NCBI GenBank assembly: GCA_014730235.1
Contig: WJIO01000271.1
Coordinates: forward strand, 1-8,382
Reading direction: 5' to 3'
DNA length: 8,382 nucleotides
Origin: Candidatus Poribacteria bacterium
GTDB taxonomy: Bacteria > Poribacteria > DTPJ01 > WJIO01
The notes under the pieces were generated by a model. The model saw only the letters and a program-made list of their open reading frames with translations, was not told where the DNA came from and ran no database searches. Of this stretch, positions 1-8,382 are shown in pieces (the first letter of the stretch is position 1; each line of letters begins with the position of its first letter). Made by a program: the position numbers and the translations under genes.

Positions 1-77
1 CTATGGAATGGCTGGAATATAGTTTCATCCTGGTGTTTTCTATGAGTGCTTTATTTCAGGGAGAAAGTGCAGAATAA
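1..77 (+). CDS. C-terminal end of an upstream gene (partial, 5' end outside window)
   Basis: The frame whose codons begin at position 3 is open from the left edge to a TAA at 75-77 and encodes 24 visible residues beginning MEWLEYSFILVF and ending FQGESAE. The TAA shares its last base with the ATG of the AddB-like gene (TAATG), an arrangement typical of translationally coupled operon genes. Both other plus frames are closed early, by a TGA at 43-45 and a TAG at 20-22. The fragment is too short for a family call. The in-frame ATG at position 3 means it could in principle be a tiny leader ORF, but the end of a longer gene is likelier. If real, it is a candidate third member of the AddAB-like operon. 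Confidence 0.5.
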   Translation, partial: MEWLEYSFILVFSMSALFQGESAE

Positions 78-2782
78 TGAGAAAAGTCAAATCTATCAGG
101 CAAATATATGAAGAAGTCAAAGATCATGATCTGGTTATTACAGTCGATGCCCCATTGCGAACAGCACTGAATAAGCAACTTGATAAACCTATGCTGGGTA
201 TGTTTGCAGTTACCCCAAAGGAACTGGCCTCTGAATATGCAGTTCATAACCTGGGTAAACCTTTAATGGATGAATCAACGGCGATTTTGAAGGTGGCAAA
301 AAGTCTGGATCTGGAAATCAAGCAAACACATTATAACGTAAGCAGGATATTCCATATCTGGCAGAACAAAGGTAAAATACAACAGGTTGGGCAATATATG
401 ACTGATTCTGTAGCAGAAATGCTGAACCTGGTGTGGGATCTGCCAACAGTATATAGCGCCATGGAGCGATTTAACCGTTCTGTCCTTACGGGCAAACGTA
501 TAGCGGTCGTTGGTTATGACTTATTTACAGAGCTTGATAAAAGTGTCTTGCCTGAAGTGTATAACGAAATCGGTGTTTTCACAAATGAGGTGTATGAACT
601 GCCGGAATTATACGCTTTCCCCAGCGAGAAAAACGTTGTTGATAAAGTCGTCTCTATAATCGACAGAGAAAATGCGGATGATATAGCTATTGTGCTTAAT
701 CCAGACAGTTCTTATCTGCCGCTCGTCAGATCCAGGCTAACAAACAGAGGTGTTCCGCTTAACACAAGAAGGCAATTGAGTGATCATTTTTTAACAAGAC
801 AAATACTAAGACTTATAGAAATTGGTATGAATTTAAACGACCGTATTGTAGGAGAATTTTTACCAATTGCCAATCTTCTCTCCTTGCACATTAACCACGG
901 GTATAGTAAATACTTGCTATCAGAATACATAAATATTGCAAACAAAGATACAAATTTGAATGACTTATATAATTTCCTTACAAATATTACAGCAAGAAGC
1001 TATGCCGAAGTTATGGATTGGTTAAGAGACAGGGATATCAAGCCGCCAACAGAATTCATGGATTTGCTTGAGCAATTGGATATAAGGAATCAGGTTGTAA
1101 ACTTTGACTCCTATTCAAACCTAGTATACTACATGACGAACTTTGATTTTGATATACCGGGAAATAAGAGCGGAGCGCTGCTGGTCAACTGTATGAACTC
1201 AGCATATGTTGACAGACCTGTCTGCCTCTTCCTGGGAATGGACGCATCATGGACCAGAAATGTTAATGAGGAATGGCTGGATAGCAGGAACGAAAACGCC
1301 AAAAGTCTTGATATGTTTCAGATTCTTCTGCAGCAGGGACAACAGAGATATTATTTTGTGTCCAGTATGAAAGATAACCAGAAAGTCATTCCTTGCTACT
1401 ATTTTAACGCTCTATTGGAACCTACTATTGATAACTTTTCGGATCCGGTGTTTACAATCAAAAAGATGGGCATCGTTGCTGATACTGATAATTGGGAAGG
1501 CAGCGTATCAGATATAGAAGCTGAGTTATATAAATTTACACATTTCTCACAGAGTTCTTTGAATGCTTTTGTCCAGTGTCCAAAGCTATATGCCTATGAA
1601 CATCTGAGTAGTCCAAAGGAAGAAACATATTTTTTGAAAGGCAATCTGCTGCATGATTTTGCTGCCTTCTATTTCAATTATCCGGATGTGGTTAATAGTA
1701 GGGGAAATAGCTTCTTTGTGGATCATATGATAGCAGAATACAGAAAAATGGTAAGTGATATAAAGATTGATAAAGAATATACGCTTTTCAATATAGGAGT
1801 CCAGAATATACGGTCTTTCATTGATGCACTTGAGGTGGACTATAGCATTGCTCTGGATGTGATTAATAAGTCAAAACGAAGCGAAGAAAATCGTTTTGCT
1901 AATCTTCTGGGAATGAGTATAGACAGCAAGAATTCGGAACCAGAATTTATAGATGACGACCTTGACATTAAAGGCATATTTGACCTGATTGTGGATCATT
2001 CGACTATAGTAGACTATAAGTCAGGTATGAAAAAGAAGTCGGCATCCAAAATCGTAAAAGGAGCAAATCCCAGATTCATTGTTAACAAAGGATTTATCGA
2101 TGATGCAGACAGTGAGGATGTAGACCGCAGTGATATGCAGGATTCATATTCTGTCATGGATGACTTGGACTTTCAGCCGATACTATATATTCATCAATTG
2201 CGACGTTATAATACAGATACTATAAGCTTTCTTCATTATTATTGCCTGGGAAATTACAAGGATATAATCAATGGAGTAGCAGATCCTGATACTAGCACAG
2301 TTCTTATCAGGTATTATCCCCTCGCCTTTAACCAGTTTCTGCAATCAGAAGACGCAATGGAACTATTGGCTTCCTCCCAAGACAGGAGGAAGATAATCAG
2401 CAACCTGGGAACTGAAGCGTTAAGTAGTTTTTTTAGACAAAACCCTATACCGGAAGCTTTACAATTCGATAATCAACAATTACTTAACAGCCAGTATCAG
2501 GATATGTTCTCCCAATATATATTTGATGGAATGGGAAAACAAAATAAATCTTTGCAAGAATGTGCTGATAGCTTCCTGAAGACCATAGTATCACTTAGGA
2601 CTGGAAACAGACAAAAGATTGCATTATTCTTCAAGGAAGACCTGGATGCCTTTGAGTTATTTGTCCAGGAAAAGCTTTTAGAGATGAATACTTACCTACG
2701 GGATGGTTTCCCAGCCCGGCCATTGTCAAGAAAAGTCTGCAAAAAATGCTCTTGCAGTGATATTTGCATGAACAAGCTATAG
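77..2782 (+). CDS. AddB-like helicase-nuclease subunit with Fe-S cysteine staple
   Basis: This 901-residue protein looks like the AddB side of an AddAB double-strand-break resection complex. The N-terminal 450 or so residues resemble superfamily 1 helicase folds without a working ATPase: where a Walker A loop should stand (about residues 20-30) there is VDAPLRTALNK, with no GxGKT. Helicase-like strands appear near 202-240 (IAIVLNP, then YLPLVRSRL) and 369-389 (SAYVDRPVCLFLGMD). A RecB-type PD-(D/E)XK nuclease follows, with H526, D636, and D646-Y647-K648, then a QxxxY motif at Q700-Y704. Cysteines C501, C888, C891 and C897 (C, long gap, then CxxCx5C) match the 4Fe-4S staple of AddB. At 901 residues it is shorter than Bacillus AddB (about 1160). 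The ATG at 77 overlaps the upstream stop, and GGGAG at 59-63 is a rather distant ribosome binding site. A Cas4 or lone RecB-like nuclease is unlikely, given the long helicase-like region and the AddA-like partner. Confidence 0.85.
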   Translation: MRKVKSIRQIYEEVKDHDLVITVDAPLRTALNKQLDKPMLGMFAVTPKELASEYAVHNLGKPLMDESTAILKVAKSLDLEIKQTHYNVSRIFHIWQNKGKIQQVGQYMTDSVAEMLNLVWDLPTVYSAMERFNRSVLTGKRIAVVGYDLFTELDKSVLPEVYNEIGVFTNEVYELPELYAFPSEKNVVDKVVSIIDRENADDIAIVLNPDSSYLPLVRSRLTNRGVPLNTRRQLSDHFLTRQILRLIEIGMNLNDRIVGEFLPIANLLSLHINHGYSKYLLSEYINIANKDTNLNDLYNFLTNITARSYAEVMDWLRDRDIKPPTEFMDLLEQLDIRNQVVNFDSYSNLVYYMTNFDFDIPGNKSGALLVNCMNSAYVDRPVCLFLGMDASWTRNVNEEWLDSRNENAKSLDMFQILLQQGQQRYYFVSSMKDNQKVIPCYYFNALLEPTIDNFSDPVFTIKKMGIVADTDNWEGSVSDIEAELYKFTHFSQSSLNAFVQCPKLYAYEHLSSPKEETYFLKGNLLHDFAAFYFNYPDVVNSRGNSFFVDHMIAEYRKMVSDIKIDKEYTLFNIGVQNIRSFIDALEVDYSIALDVINKSKRSEENRFANLLGMSIDSKNSEPEFIDDDLDIKGIFDLIVDHSTIVDYKSGMKKKSASKIVKGANPRFIVNKGFIDDADSEDVDRSDMQDSYSVMDDLDFQPILYIHQLRRYNTDTISFLHYYCLGNYKDIINGVADPDTSTVLIRYYPLAFNQFLQSEDAMELLASSQDRRKIISNLGTEALSSFFRQNPIPEALQFDNQQLLNSQYQDMFSQYIFDGMGKQNKSLQECADSFLKTIVSLRTGNRQKIALFFKEDLDAFELFVQEKLLEMNTYLRDGFPARPLSRKVCKKCSCSDICMNKL

Positions 2783-2796
2783 ATAGCCATATGGCA

Positions 2797-2803
2797 GAAG
2801 GAG
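2797..2803 (+). promoter_or_regulatory. Ribosome binding site fixing the AddA-like start at 2809
   Basis: GAAGGAG lies five bases before the ATG at 2809. The same frame could also open at TTG 2764, overlapping the AddB-like gene by 19 bases, or at ATG 2791, but neither has a comparable site at the right distance. Conserved family sequence (LNPEQ, then Walker A) begins just after the 2809 start. Confidence 0.75.
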
Positions 2804-2808
2804 TTAAA

Positions 2809-5676
2809 ATGCCACGACAATTGAATCCCGAACAAGAAAATATATCCCGGAGCATAGATGGTATATATGTCGTTGACGCAGGAGCCGGAACGGGAAAAAC
2901 AACCACTATTACTGAACGATACAGGAGTATTCTGGAGAAAGTTTCACCAGACAGGATCCTTCTTTTGACATTTACCGACAATGCGGCTGAACATATGCGC
3001 GATGAAATAATAAATCAATGCTCTGATATGTATAATATATGGGAATTGATGGATGCTCCTATCAGCACCTTTCATTCATACTGCAACGGGTTGCTAAAAA
3101 AACATGGACTGAGCGCGCCGGAATACCTGGGTATACAGGAAAAGCTCCATAATTACAGGGTTATGGAAAACAGTATCTATGAGCGCCAGATATTCAAGAC
3201 ATTCTTCGGCGATTTTCGGGAGCGGAACCCAAAATATGTTGACTTATACAAGGTGATAGAGGACACTGAAGTCTTGTCATTGATCAAACGACTTTGCTGC
3301 AAAGGTATATTTCCCACTAAGGATGCCTGGTTTGGGAACGGTATCCAAATGTTAGAAGGTGATTTTGCAGGATACATGGAAAGATTCCGTGTTCTTAATG
3401 AGCCTGGTCAGGGCAAGAATGGCAAACGGACACAGTCAGAGTTTCTAAAGTCTTTTAAACCCAAATTCCGGGAAAATATATATATTTCCCATCCTGAGGA
3501 AGAAGAACTCTTCAACGGAGTATGGGTAAACCCGGAGATGGCAGAATCTGCATTTTGCAGTGATGATCGAACCTTACTCATGAAATTTGTCTATGATGCA
3601 TATCTGGAGTATATAAAATTTTGTATGCACTCCAACCAGATCAATTTCGAATTCATGATTATGTTTGCCTTTGTATTACTGCATGGTGATCATGGACTGA
3701 GGGAGAAGACGGCTTTTGATTATGTCATGGTAGATGAGTTCCAGGATACCAACGAATTGCAATTCATGATGACACTACTTCTGATGAAGACCAATAATCT
3801 TTGCGCCGTTGGCGACTGGAAGCAGGGAATCTATAGTTTCAGGTACGCTACAATAGACAACATTCTTGATTTTGATGATAAGATCGAACATTACAGGGAT
3901 GTCCTGAATATAGACTATACCCGCGTTAGCTTTGATACTGACACTAATCATAAGGAATTTGTCACCAATTACAGGAGTTCCCAGAAGATACTGGATTTTT
4001 CCGAAAATTCTCTGATTGCCAGAGCAACGAAGGAAGAGAAAATAGACGAAAGTGTCAGAAATGAGATCACACACTTGCTAGCTGGCAAGGAATTGGACGA
4101 TAAGACAAATATCGAGTTTATGATGGTAGATGATACAGATAAAGAATACTATATAATCCTTGGTAAGATCCGGGAGATGGTCCAAAATAGCGAATATATG
4201 CTTAAAGATTGGGATGGAGATAAATATACTCTACATCCGGTGGATTACAGAGACATTGCAGTCCTCACCCGAACCAGGATATTTGGTCTCGAACTGCAGA
4301 CCAGAGCCACGGAATATGGCATACCTGTCAACTATGATGGCGGGATTGAGTTATTCAGGACACAACCGGCAATCCTGGTGCTGGCATGGCTAAGATTGAT
4401 GGTGAACGTCAGAAATAGCAATGGTTGGATCCCTGTCCTGGAGAAAGAAGGTTACAGTTTTGCAGAGATCAGGACTATCATTCATAAGAAGCAGTGGCCT
4501 GAAAGGCTCCTGCAATTTAGAGGAGAACTGCTGAAGCAGAAATCGGATCTGGCAGCCTTGGTAGATAATATCCTCAACTTCTACGGCTTCACATGCGACT
4601 ATTCCAACGCGCTGGTCGTAGAACTTGAGGAACTGTTTCGCAATTCCCTGGCATCAGTACCTGACCTGATTGGGTTCATTGAGGAGAGCATCAATCAGAA
4701 TGAAACCCAGAACATAGACATAAATAGATCAGAGAACGCCGTAACCATACAGACCATACATGGGGCAAAGGGACTTGAATATCCCGTTGTATTCATTGTC
4801 GATGTGAACAGCAGGCATTTCCCTTCTACAATCACTGACAGCGATATGCTATATTATCATGACCTGACGGGCTTACGTATAAGAAAAGAGTATGGTGAGA
4901 AGAACGGTCACAAGTTTGTCTTCAACAAATGGCAGTCGGACTTACTTTCAACAAAGCTCTTTTCCGACTATGACGAGGAGAGACGTTTGCTATACGTTGC
5001 CATAACGAGGGCAAAGCAATACCTGGTGTTTACGGCAAACCCGACCTGCTCTACTTTCTTTAAAGATATGGCAGATGGTTTTGAGGTTATAGAGGACTAT
5101 CATCCCGCAAATATTGAGAATATGGAGTCTATAGATATTGGCGGAGCTGAGGTACTTGATGAGATTATTATAGGTGATTATGAGAAACAGGGAAATGTAT
5201 TCAGCGTGCATGACCTGATGCAGTATTCCAGCCCTGAATTGGGAAAAGGCATGGACTTTGGTAATGAACTCCATAATTTTGCCCAGAAAGTGGCACTTGG
5301 TATTGATGTCCAATGGAACGAACCTGAAGCTGAGCGGATAAGAAGCTTCATAACGTCGCTTAAAGCCAGAGAGCTGAGACCAGAAGTCCAGTGTTCATTG
5401 CCCCTCGGCAACGATCTAATCCGCGGTAAGATCGACCTGGTAGCATTTTGTGATGATGGGATCACAATCGTAGATTACAAGAGCGATCTGACCGAGATCA
5501 ATGAGGGAGAATACCAGAAACAGTTATCTGTTTATTATCATGTTCTTCGAGAGCTTCATCCAGATAAGCCAATATACTGTTCGCTCTACTATGTATCAAT
5601 GGATATAGTAAAGGGTATTACTCCATTTTCTTTGGAGAAAACTAGGGAATTTCTGAAATGTTCTATTGGCAGTTAA
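2809..5676 (+). CDS. AddA-like UvrD-family helicase with C-terminal RecB-type nuclease
   Basis: This 955-residue protein combines an ATP-driven superfamily 1A (UvrD/Rep) DNA helicase with a PD-(D/E)XK nuclease, the plan of AddA. Numbered from ATG 2809, it shows a Q motif (LNPEQ, 5-9), Walker A GAGTGKT (25-31, K30), motif Ia LTFTDNAAEHM (53-63), and motif II DEFQDT (309-314). Motif III is GDWKQGIYSFR (335-345), motif IV NYRSS (387-391), motif V TIHGAKGLEYP (from 649), and motif VI RRLLYVAITRA (725-735, arginine finger R734). The nuclease has H822, D876, D889-Y890-K891 and QxxxY at Q905-Y909. All key residues are present, so both activities are probably intact. It begins 26 bases after the AddB-like stop, giving the addB-addA order seen in Firmicutes. 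It is shorter than Bacillus AddA (about 1230), with only about 85 residues between motif VI and the nuclease. A stand-alone UvrD or Gabija GajB is less likely because of the nuclease and the AddB-like partner. Confidence 0.88.
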   Translation: MPRQLNPEQENISRSIDGIYVVDAGAGTGKTTTITERYRSILEKVSPDRILLLTFTDNAAEHMRDEIINQCSDMYNIWELMDAPISTFHSYCNGLLKKHGLSAPEYLGIQEKLHNYRVMENSIYERQIFKTFFGDFRERNPKYVDLYKVIEDTEVLSLIKRLCCKGIFPTKDAWFGNGIQMLEGDFAGYMERFRVLNEPGQGKNGKRTQSEFLKSFKPKFRENIYISHPEEEELFNGVWVNPEMAESAFCSDDRTLLMKFVYDAYLEYIKFCMHSNQINFEFMIMFAFVLLHGDHGLREKTAFDYVMVDEFQDTNELQFMMTLLLMKTNNLCAVGDWKQGIYSFRYATIDNILDFDDKIEHYRDVLNIDYTRVSFDTDTNHKEFVTNYRSSQKILDFSENSLIARATKEEKIDESVRNEITHLLAGKELDDKTNIEFMMVDDTDKEYYIILGKIREMVQNSEYMLKDWDGDKYTLHPVDYRDIAVLTRTRIFGLELQTRATEYGIPVNYDGGIELFRTQPAILVLAWLRLMVNVRNSNGWIPVLEKEGYSFAEIRTIIHKKQWPERLLQFRGELLKQKSDLAALVDNILNFYGFTCDYSNALVVELEELFRNSLASVPDLIGFIEESINQNETQNIDINRSENAVTIQTIHGAKGLEYPVVFIVDVNSRHFPSTITDSDMLYYHDLTGLRIRKEYGEKNGHKFVFNKWQSDLLSTKLFSDYDEERRLLYVAITRAKQYLVFTANPTCSTFFKDMADGFEVIEDYHPANIENMESIDIGGAEVLDEIIIGDYEKQGNVFSVHDLMQYSSPELGKGMDFGNELHNFAQKVALGIDVQWNEPEAERIRSFITSLKARELRPEVQCSLPLGNDLIRGKIDLVAFCDDGITIVDYKSDLTEINEGEYQKQLSVYYHVLRELHPDKPIYCSLYYVSMDIVKGITPFSLEKTREFLKCSIGS

Positions 5677-5768: not shown

Positions 5769-6755
5769 ATGTGTGAAATACTAGATCATCAGATTTCTAC
5801 AGAAGGTAATATCGTTAATTTGTGGACCACTAAATATATCAGGTTTAATGTAGATGAAAAAAAAATGAAATATGAAAAATATTGGATACAGAAGGTCAAA
5901 GCCGAACTATATGAAAAGTTTAAACAAATCAAGCATAATGACGCTATGATTTTGAGAGGAACATATAAATCAAAAGAGACTCCCAAAGGTATATTTCCCG
6001 ATATAGAAAATATTCTATTCTATAATATTGGTGGCTTTGGAACTCTCTGCCGCAGGGGGTTAATCTTTGAAGGTTTACCTCAGTGGATGGTGAAAACCGT
6101 GTCACTACCCGAACCCCCTTGCCCTTTGATATCCGAATCGCTTAACTATTATAGATATGAAATGGTTAGTGTAGATGACCAAGAACCTAGACTTTGGGAC
6201 AAAGGCGATACATTGGCTAGTTGGGTGAAAATCCCATTTGAGAGCAGCTTTTTCACTGAAAGTTCAACTAGAAAAGCTTGCATTATTTGGAGTGCTTTAA
6301 GAAGTCATGCGAATAGCATAAATGTGAATGATAACTATAAATTGCCAATTGAACGAGGCGTAAAATTTGGCATTCGTTTGAAACTACATTTACCTATCAG
6401 CAACACATTGAATATAGATAAGGCAAAGTCCTTGATTGATGGCACTGTCGTTGCATTTCAAGGATGTAATAATGGCAATGGTATAGATTACGTAGTAGAG
6501 CGGATATATAATATATCCGAAGTGCTAAAGGGGAATCTAACTCCCGGTGATATAAAAAAATATCTTACTTTCGAGAAATATCGAAAACTAGAGGTTTTGT
6601 GGTCAGGAAAAATCATGGAAGGCAAAGCCACAAGACCTCGCTGGGCTCCTGATGATGATTTTTGCGTTTTTGGCTCTGTGGTTCTTGACAATACTCCTAG
6701 TAGTGATTATATGTTCAGCGGATGTTTGTTTGAGATTAAGGAAAGAAGACCATAG
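5769..6755 (+). CDS. Protein of unknown function, 328 residues, AT-rich
   Basis: I do not recognise this family. The protein starts MCEILDHQISTEG and ends GCLFEIKERRP. It has no obvious signal peptide or membrane segment and looks like a soluble mixed alpha/beta protein. There is a lysine-rich, probably helical stretch at about residues 30-55, then a possible core with FPDIENILFYNIGG near 75-90. The second half is richer in predicted strands, with KFGIRLKLHLP near 200 and DGTVVAFQG near 224-232. No catalytic motif stands out. Coding is supported by the clear ribosome binding site, the 987-base open frame and the lack of a credible ORF on the other strand. Sampled lines are roughly 32-37% GC, below the AddA-like gene and well below the SNF2 gene, which suggests a separate origin. 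It follows the AddAB-like pair in the same direction and could be an accessory subunit, but nothing in its sequence proves that. Confidence 0.8.
   Translation: MCEILDHQISTEGNIVNLWTTKYIRFNVDEKKMKYEKYWIQKVKAELYEKFKQIKHNDAMILRGTYKSKETPKGIFPDIENILFYNIGGFGTLCRRGLIFEGLPQWMVKTVSLPEPPCPLISESLNYYRYEMVSVDDQEPRLWDKGDTLASWVKIPFESSFFTESSTRKACIIWSALRSHANSINVNDNYKLPIERGVKFGIRLKLHLPISNTLNIDKAKSLIDGTVVAFQGCNNGNGIDYVVERIYNISEVLKGNLTPGDIKKYLTFEKYRKLEVLWSGKIMEGKATRPRWAPDDDFCVFGSVVLDNTPSSDYMFSGCLFEIKERRP
6501..6519. repeat. Perfect 19-bp palindrome inside the orphan gene
   Basis: CGGATATAT-A-ATATATCCG is a perfect nine-base inverted repeat around a single central base, within the codons for E-R-I-Y-N-I-S of the orphan gene. 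The form is that of a site for a dimeric DNA-binding protein. It lies well inside a coding region and much of it is alternating A/T, so a functional role is unproven. Confidence 0.6.
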
Positions 6756-6921: not shown

Positions 6922-8382
6922 CTATTCTTTATTACCTGCTTTTACCTTGGTATCCCTGAGCTTCTCAAGGACATTCTTCATGAATTCTGTTGTGTCTTTC
7001 TTTCCCAGAAGCTTTTCCGCCTCTGTCTCTTCCTTGTCACCCATAATCCCTACGAATTGGCTTATCTTGAAACCCAGGGCTTCCATCATGTCAGCATCTG
7101 TCCCATGGCCGCAGACAAGATAATAACAAAGAACGCTGTCTTTAGTGCCGATCCGGTGTGCTCTGTCCTCACTTTGGCTGTGGACGGCAGGCGACCAGTC
7201 CAGCTCACCAAACACAACCGCTCTTGCCCTTGGCAGATTAAGGCCTGTGGCAGCCCGTAACGAGATTATCAGAAGGTTTGTGCGTTCTTCCATAAAATTC
7301 TTTACAGCCCAATCTTTTTCTTTTAGGTTTTCTCTGCCTGTAATACAGCCAGGGAAATATTCTGCAAGCTCTTTGAGGTAGATATCAACTACATCATGAT
7401 GATGGGCGAACAAAAGGCACGGCTCTCCCGCTTCCAGGATAAGTTTGACAAACTGGGCTACATGATGGGCTTTGGCTATACCAGTGATTCTTCTTGTTTC
7501 ATTAACCGCCTCTCTCATCATACGGCCTTTCAAAAAAACATCTTCGACATCAGGGATCTCAGTGGCAATTTCCACAGCTTTGCCTATCAAATCCTGATAC
7601 ATTCCCTCGTCAGCGTCTATCTCTTGGACAATGCGTCTTTTCGGTGGAAGTTCTGACAACACTTCTTCTTTTGTCCTTCTCAGGAGCAGGCCTTCCTCTT
7701 TCAGGTATTTGCCGAGAAGTTCCGGATCCACCACCGTATCAGATCCGTAACCGTAACACCATTCCCTGGTGAAGGATTCCCAGTCACCGAGACAGTGGAA
7801 TTCCAGGATATTCAGGATGTTCCATATCTCGCCGCCGCGATTGTAGATAGGTGTTCCGGATAATCCGATGACGTTCTCGCATTTTTCCGAGACAAGAGAT
7901 GCTACGCTGTATTTCTGCGTCCCGGCATGACGGAGTTCCTGTATTTCATCGAAGACGATAGCCTTGAAATCCATCTCCTGGAAAGGATCTTTCCATCCCC
8001 TGAGCAGAAGGTAATGTATGAAATAGATATGGGCTTTCGGAAGCGAATAAGGAGTCAGGCCTGTTATGGTGTGGTAGGTAAGCTCATTGTCCGGTCTGAG
8101 AATATTATTTTCCGATGGTTCGACCTTGACTGTGTTAAGGAATTTTTTGGTTTCAGATTCCCACTGTTTCACGAGATGCGGGGGGACGACTATCAAAACT
8201 GGATACTGGTTTATCTGAGCCAGCCATGATAATGCTATTACCGTCTTTCCCAAGCCCATTGAATCCGCCAGAAGAGCCCTTCTGTTGTGCATTAGAAAGG
8301 CAAGCCCTTCTTTCTGGAATTCCCTGAGTTCGCCGTTGAATCCCGCCGGGTTATCCAGCTTTATGGGTCTTTGGGATATCTC
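6922..8382 (-). CDS. SNF2-family DNA helicase/ATPase, C-terminal part (5' end outside window)
   Basis: The last 486 residues of a superfamily 2 SNF2-type ATPase are visible. These proteins translocate on double-stranded DNA and remodel or displace what is bound. Numbering from the window edge, a Q-motif-like LREFQKEGLAFL (19-30) precedes Walker A MGLGKT (42-47), motif Ia LIVVPPHLVKQW, and the Walker B box D145-E-I-Q148. Motif III LSGTP, an LRRTKEEVLSELPPK segment and motif IV CLLFAHHHD follow. Motifs V-VI are SLRAATGLNLP and QSEDRAHRIG (403-412, R410). All ATPase motifs are intact, and the set resembles the SMARCAL1-like and bacterial SNF2 groups. The internal ATG at 8292 is not the true start, because the frame and the conserved Q-motif region continue to the edge. 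The stop is TAG at 6922-6924. Sampled lines are about 48-57% GC, higher than the plus-strand genes. Zorya and DISARM include SNF2-type proteins, but no other marker of those systems is visible. Confidence 0.88.
   Translation of the reverse strand, partial: EISQRPIKLDNPAGFNGELREFQKEGLAFLMHNRRALLADSMGLGKTVIALSWLAQINQYPVLIVVPPHLVKQWESETKKFLNTVKVEPSENNILRPDNELTYHTITGLTPYSLPKAHIYFIHYLLLRGWKDPFQEMDFKAIVFDEIQELRHAGTQKYSVASLVSEKCENVIGLSGTPIYNRGGEIWNILNILEFHCLGDWESFTREWCYGYGSDTVVDPELLGKYLKEEGLLLRRTKEEVLSELPPKRRIVQEIDADEGMYQDLIGKAVEIATEIPDVEDVFLKGRMMREAVNETRRITGIAKAHHVAQFVKLILEAGEPCLLFAHHHDVVDIYLKELAEYFPGCITGRENLKEKDWAVKNFMEERTNLLIISLRAATGLNLPRARAVVFGELDWSPAVHSQSEDRAHRIGTKDSVLCYYLVCGHGTDADMMEALGFKISQFVGIMGDKEETEAEKLLGKKDTTEFMKNVLEKLRDTKVKAGNKE

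Follow-up and report, generated by a model that had tools for sequence, protein, structure and literature searches.

Are the two adjacent helicase-nuclease genes on this Poribacteria contig the ordinary AddAB of their host, or do they form a branch of their own, and what would such a machine be used for? RecBCD and AddAB decide between repair and destruction of DNA ends, and they shape bacterial immunity and CRISPR adaptation. For archaea the usual account is one of reliance on Mre11-Rad50, with HerA-NurA added in thermophiles. The first-pass annotation of the sequence had proposed a possible distinct AddAB branch, used for defence or for the processing of plasmid or virus DNA and not for housekeeping repair.

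The gene pair and its conserved residues

The window, that is the whole stretch of DNA analysed, is 8,382 nucleotides long and makes up the entire contig C207 of the host genome G000 (5.53 Mb in 451 contigs, 91.6% complete). Two adjacent open reading frames had been reported, and both are present on the forward strand. Gene B (77..2782), which begins 76 bases from the contig edge, encodes an AddB-like subunit of 901 aa, predicted to be an inactivated helicase fold with a C-terminal RecB-type nuclease. Gene A (2809..5676) encodes an AddA-like subunit of 955 aa, a UvrD-type helicase with a C-terminal RecB-type nuclease. The longest open reading frame of A opens at a TTG at 2764, with an ATG at 2809; the ATG is taken as the start because of a perfect AAGGAG ribosome-binding site at 2798..2803 on the same strand and because of the start position of the relatives. 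Compared with Bacillus, where AddA has 1232 aa and AddB 1132-1156 resolved residues, the two proteins are about one fifth shorter, as had been noted. Downstream of the pair there is an open reading frame of 328 aa with its own ribosome-binding site (5769-6755, forward strand), which gave no match with a meaningful E-value in Pfam, NCBIfam, PADLOC or PHROGs. On the reverse strand follows the C-terminal part of an SNF2 helicase (6922-8382), incomplete at the contig edge, with the phage helicase family phrog_62 as its best match (284 bits) and 38.5% identity to a helicase of Tunturiibacter phage Tunturi_5.

The Pfam profile search placed PF12705 (PD-(D/E)XK), the only domain that B shows by sequence, at residues 489-656 of B, and A scored 165.9 bits with PF00580, 124.8 bits with PF13361 and 30.9 bits with PF12705. 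In an alignment of 62 bacterial and archaeal relatives, every helicase motif examined in A is invariant. The Walker A motif AGAGTGKT (residues 24-31, 2878..2901, forward strand) has G25, G27, T28, G29, K30 and T31 in all 62, and A24 and A26 in 61. In the Walker B or motif II sequence DEFQD (residues 309-313, 3733..3747, forward strand) D309, E310, Q312 and D313 are the same in 62/62, and F311 is likewise invariant. A Walker A motif is absent from B in every one of the 62 aligned sequences. The nuclease centre of B (H526, D636, D646 and K648; 1652..2020, forward strand) is found in all 62 relatives. That of A (H822, D876, D889 and K891; 5272..5481, forward strand), whose residue numbers are correct only when counted from the ATG at 2809, is invariant in the 61 relatives with these columns, the remaining one being a fragment without them. 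This invariance implies that one motor and two nucleases are under strong purifying selection, and since it extends over bacterial and archaeal relatives the motif set is not a product of chance.

B also carries the four cysteines of an AddB-type staple, which may hold a putative Fe-S cluster. The first of these, C501 (1577..1579, forward strand), is a cysteine in 18 and a serine in 44 of the 62 relatives, and the C-terminal three, C888, C891 and C897 (2738..2767, forward strand), can be read in the sequence. The C-terminal cysteines were found in four members from Poribacteria, Ignavibacteria and Bacteroidota, window B included, and are absent from the other 58. Archaeal members lack them, and mostly C501 too, a loss which implies that the Fe-S cluster is dispensable for the fold in the archaeal branch. 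The first-pass annotation had thus read the pair correctly as one intact UvrD-type helicase, a helicase-like region without Walker A, two complete RecB-type nuclease centres with all eight residues in place, and a cysteine staple.

Relation to AddAB and other known machines

An ordinary AddAB at a conserved locus was ruled out by a model score, a missing domain, a profile comparison and a phylogeny. A scores 186 bits with the AddA model TIGR02785, below the family cut-off of 707.65, and the profile search found no ADDB_N domain in B or its relatives. Set against five AddB sequences from Poribacteria, B gave no significant hhalign result (0), whereas an AddB-type protein on another contig of the host, C300, gave 98.9% with the same sequences. 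In the maximum-likelihood tree 17 A proteins form a clade with support 100/100, and 11 Poribacteria AddA proteins form another, also 100/100. A single clade of A and AddA without RecB is disfavoured (p-AU 0.012); the branch setting A, AddA and RecB apart from the UvrD-type rows has support 89/81, and long branches make this deep order unsure. The distinct branch proposed earlier is therefore upheld, with A outside the AddA clade of the phylum and B without a sequence match to Poribacteria AddB, so that the two were not found together within the ordinary clades of the lineage at a conserved addAB locus.

The AlphaFold2 model of B, for which the input was an alignment of 62 sequences from the B family itself, has a pLDDT of 84 and its best match is AddB (3u44_B, Z 18.8, rmsd 8.5 over 672 residues), with the whole chain spanned; Foldseek gave an E-value of 5e-13 with AddB 3u4q_B, and AdnA and RecC rank after AddB with weaker matches. 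A search of the B profile against PDB sequences found no related chain. The predicted structure of B thus matches an AddB-like helicase fold despite the absent sequence similarity. The model of A (pLDDT 85.8) has AddA 4cej_A as its best Foldseek match (E 1.6e-38), followed by RecB. In the VIA-align comparison shorter PcrA/UvrD chains come out on top by Z, and AddA has Z 22-23 over about 800 residues; the explanation to this ranking is that large domain shifts inflate the full-length rmsd. An AddAB-type machine outside ordinary AddAB is indicated, since the B model matches the AddB fold, yet the A clade is separate and B has no AddB sequence match.

What the pair shares with AddAB of Bacillus subtilis (3U44/4CEJ) is considerable: two subunits in the gene order B-A, a fold match for each of them, motifs of a single SF1A motor, presumably working, in A, a motor-dead helicase fold in B, C-terminal RecB-type nuclease centres in both (PF12705) and, in the bacterial members, the residues of the four-cysteine staple. 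The pair differs in being about 20% shorter and in a B without ADDB_N, without Walker A and without detectable AddB sequence similarity, and the archaeal members of the branch differ in lacking the Fe-S cysteines. RecC is, like B, a helicase fold without ATP site, and A resembles the RecB fold. The nuclease centre of RecC is lost, however, whereas B keeps a complete and invariant one, so a nuclease-dead partner of the RecC type is not what we see here, and the loci read showed no RecD gene. Mycobacterial AdnAB has a nuclease in both subunits, and the models have fold matches to AdnA and AdnB, but both AdnAB subunits retain their motor ATP sites, and B lacks Walker A in 62 sequences, which leaves the pair with one motor instead of two.

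UvrD-Cas4 fusions also combine an SF1 helicase with a RecB-type nuclease and occur in defence contexts with variable neighbourhoods (PMC5704561), but they are single-gene systems. An example in the Poribacteria genome G001 (L028, adjoining Type III Mod/Res genes) is not part of the A clade. GajB of Gabija is a UvrD-like helicase, and A scores 142 bits with the GajB models; the partner of GajB is, however, an OLD-type nuclease, whereas A has its own nuclease and an AddB-like partner. In PADLOC there was no full-length match of the pair to any described defence system. The matches of A were to generic UvrD-type models only (RTasHel, GajB), in several short stretches, and those of B only to short Cas4 segments. 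In the literature searched, subscription papers excepted, no published name was found for the haloarchaeal AddAB-like pair. The pair belongs to an unnamed deep branch of its own, shared mainly with haloarchaea.

Distribution and neighbourhoods in haloarchaea

A genome scan with B alone gave no match, and a six-row alignment (A3) was required as query. The pattern search, with one genome per GTDB species, found at least 68 loci, nearly all of them haloarchaeal; the others are in G001, an Ignavibacteria MAG, a Bacteroidetes MAG, an unclassified bacterium and an Aenigmatarchaeota MAG. B lies immediately upstream of A in 69 loci, with a 4-base ATGA overlap in 50. A survey of Bacteroidota gave one clear member in 395 genomes, so bacterial members are rare. 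In the haloarchaeal class B was matched in 127 of the 292 sampled genomes (43%), some with two or more copies. The branch is patchy in haloarchaea, on plasmids as well as chromosomes; B is present on 33 plasmids with a coverage of 80% or more. Proteins that are 95-99% identical were found across families, for example in Natronorubrum, Halobacterium and Halorubrum, and also between Halobellus and Halorientalis, which belong to different families. In five haloarchaeal genomes (G098, G100, G161, G268 and G353) B is present as fragments, and several of these have in-frame stops, which suggests frequent loss.

IMG/VR contained no member of the A or B family, phage records held no relative of B, and the phage matches to A are partial, generic UvrD similarity with at most 70% coverage; a virus-borne gene was rejected on these grounds, and a virus-borne role is left unsupported. 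The same results make it very improbable that the pair of the window comes from a virus or plasmid that was binned together with the MAG. The window being a whole 8.4-kb contig, the phage-type helicase adjoining the pair, and a tetranucleotide correlation of 0.77-0.81 with four host contigs, as compared to 0.83-0.92 among those contigs, would fit such an origin. The GC content of 0.405 is, however, shared with three of these four host contigs, and the homologues in G001 are on contigs with chromosomal genes.

Among the haloarchaeal neighbours of the pair, genes of defence systems (BREX, DISARM-like, RM) are over-represented. The 98 nearest genes of 20 chromosomal loci matched 96 PADLOC models (E<=1e-20), as compared to 8 models, and no BrxA, for 100 control genes taken from the same contigs at a distance of 250 kb; PADLOC models overlap, and these figures count models, not systems. 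The matches near the pair include BrxA (4 of the 98 neighbours), BrxC, BrxHII, DrmD and DrmA. A further count for the defence association gave 14/56 as compared to 1/40 (Fisher p 0.003), a difference biased upward because the reference proteins came partly from the case loci. At one locus a BREX set lies directly downstream of the pair (L045, 19691-28762; BrxA 548, BrxC 2321, BrxB 364 and a second BrxC 2382 bits). Other loci have as neighbours a BrxHII (L133, 2099 bits), a DrmD-like/DrmMI-like pair (L150) or a Type III methylase (L149), the Halorhabdus plasmid pHTIA has an annotated BREX-5 near the pair, and Halosegnis has CRISPR genes there. At many loci in haloarchaea no defence neighbour was recognised, and no single system is constant. 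Clustering the neighbours of all loci gave no near-universal third gene, the commonest family being present at 11 loci. Directly upstream of the pair we also observed a 577-aa protein and a 987-aa LmuB-like ATPase (L119, 7115-11808), an arrangement kept in several haloarchaea (L079, L086 and L113).

A defence role in haloarchaea is thus plausible; in the Poribacteria host it is unproven. The role in defence or plasmid DNA processing put forward in the first-pass annotation finds indirect support in the haloarchaeal relatives, which are patchy, plasmid-borne, transferred and have defence neighbours, and none in the bacteria, where the contexts are ordinary.

The bacterial members and the proposed role

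The Candidatus Poribacteria MAG SpSt-970 (G001) is the only relative of the same order in the searched set. Its homologues of the pair have 45% and 58% identity and are on separate contigs, which shows that the tight B-A operon is not obligatory. The B homologue lies between rsgA and a porin-like gene, and the neighbourhood of the A homologue includes sugar genes and genes of an electron-transfer flavoprotein. In G085 and G086, the Ignavibacteria and Bacteroidetes genomes, the pair occupies a shared chromosomal locus (L049, L050) adjoining ATP synthase genes; the other flank has either a gene of the exonuclease/endonuclease family or one for an alcohol dehydrogenase. It is the only source of PDDEXK_1 found in these two genomes, and for that reason the bacterial pair points rather to AddAB-like housekeeping.

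A search of the host genome for PDDEXK_1 gave five places: the AddB-type protein on C300, the window pair, a cassette on C183 and a Cas4 gene on C377. Named from their sequences, the C183 cassette is Rad52/LonB-like, and the Cas4 gene adjoins cas1 and cas3. A second set, which the first-pass annotation had recommended looking for, is thus present as a separate AddB-type pair. The AddB-type protein on C300 (L010, 1192-6596) has Walker A, ADDB_N and PDDEXK_1, and its neighbour is a UvrD helicase (824 aa) that lacks a nuclease, so that the functions are divided in an unusual way. The two host pairs are alike in placing an AddB-type protein with PDDEXK_1 next to a UvrD helicase. They differ in that the C300 partner lacks a nuclease and that the C300 protein is clearly homologous to Poribacteria AddB, unlike window B; it is the nearer AddB relative in the host. 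Most Poribacteria encode an AddA of some 1110-1280 aa, which in one family has AddB next to it, and an AddA of this size is absent from the host and G001.

Could the pair simply be the fast-diverging housekeeping AddAB of these lineages, serving break resection and recombination, with its defence neighbours a by-product of plasmids and islands? The missing larger AddA, the ordinary surroundings of B in G001 and the situation in G085 and G086 would all agree with this. In haloarchaea, however, the pair is present in fewer than half of the genomes, with multiple copies, remnants and transfer across families, and the enrichment among its neighbours is of defence proteins and not of plasmid functions alone. 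The host itself also has the AddB-type pair on C300. We regard this alternative as possible but rather doubtful. That the pair is a dedicated anti-virus system in the host, together with the SNF2 helicase and the 328-aa protein, is less likely still. Among the helicases that the SNF2 fragment resembles are defence ones such as ZorD and DpdE (158 and 136 bits), and haloarchaeal relatives have SNF2-type BrxHII or DrmD-like neighbours. The fragment has its better match in the phage family, however, is truncated at the contig edge and lies on the opposite strand; the frame of 328 aa is without a family match, and the G001 homologues have no such neighbours.

The reading we prefer is that the pair probably encodes an AddAB-type heterodimeric, ATP-driven helicase-nuclease of its own branch, accessory in haloarchaea and AddAB-like in bacteria. 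DNA-end unwinding with dual cutting is its likely activity. A and B would form a heterodimer in which A binds the DNA end and translocates, presumably in the 3'-5' direction, on the single working motor, while B, with the same fold and no ATP site, would hold and guide the other strand. As the DNA spools through, the RecB-type nuclease of each subunit may cut one strand, and Chi-like control of the machine is possible. In haloarchaea it would be an accessory, horizontally spread module that degrades linear or cut foreign DNA, acting beside BREX, DISARM-like and restriction systems, and in bacteria the pair may substitute for AddAB in end processing. RecBCD serves both end processing of the repair type and defence, and for this reason the two roles are compatible.

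A wider claim, which we hold only tentatively, is that, next to RecBCD, AddAB and AdnAB, the branch makes up a fourth major type of DNA-end helicase-nuclease with two subunits, and that in haloarchaea it is a mobile immune module. Such a module would degrade DNA that has been cut or blocked by BREX, DISARM-like or restriction systems, and it would shield haloarchaea from foreign linear DNA much as RecBCD does. A mobile AddAB-type machine that lies near defence systems and is present in about 40% of the genomes of haloarchaea would fill a gap in the picture of archaeal DNA-end processing; Haloferax volcanii is without HerA-NurA (PMC7776575). The compact form, whose B has no ATP site and whose archaeal members lack the Fe-S staple, is a useful natural experiment on the requirements of AddAB, and direct testing is feasible in genetically tractable haloarchaea. 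In both order-level relatives it was also possible to observe a UvrD-type helicase of 1059-1083 aa with an apparent inserted DEDD-type exonuclease domain (L030, 2997-6176; L193, 2742-5990).
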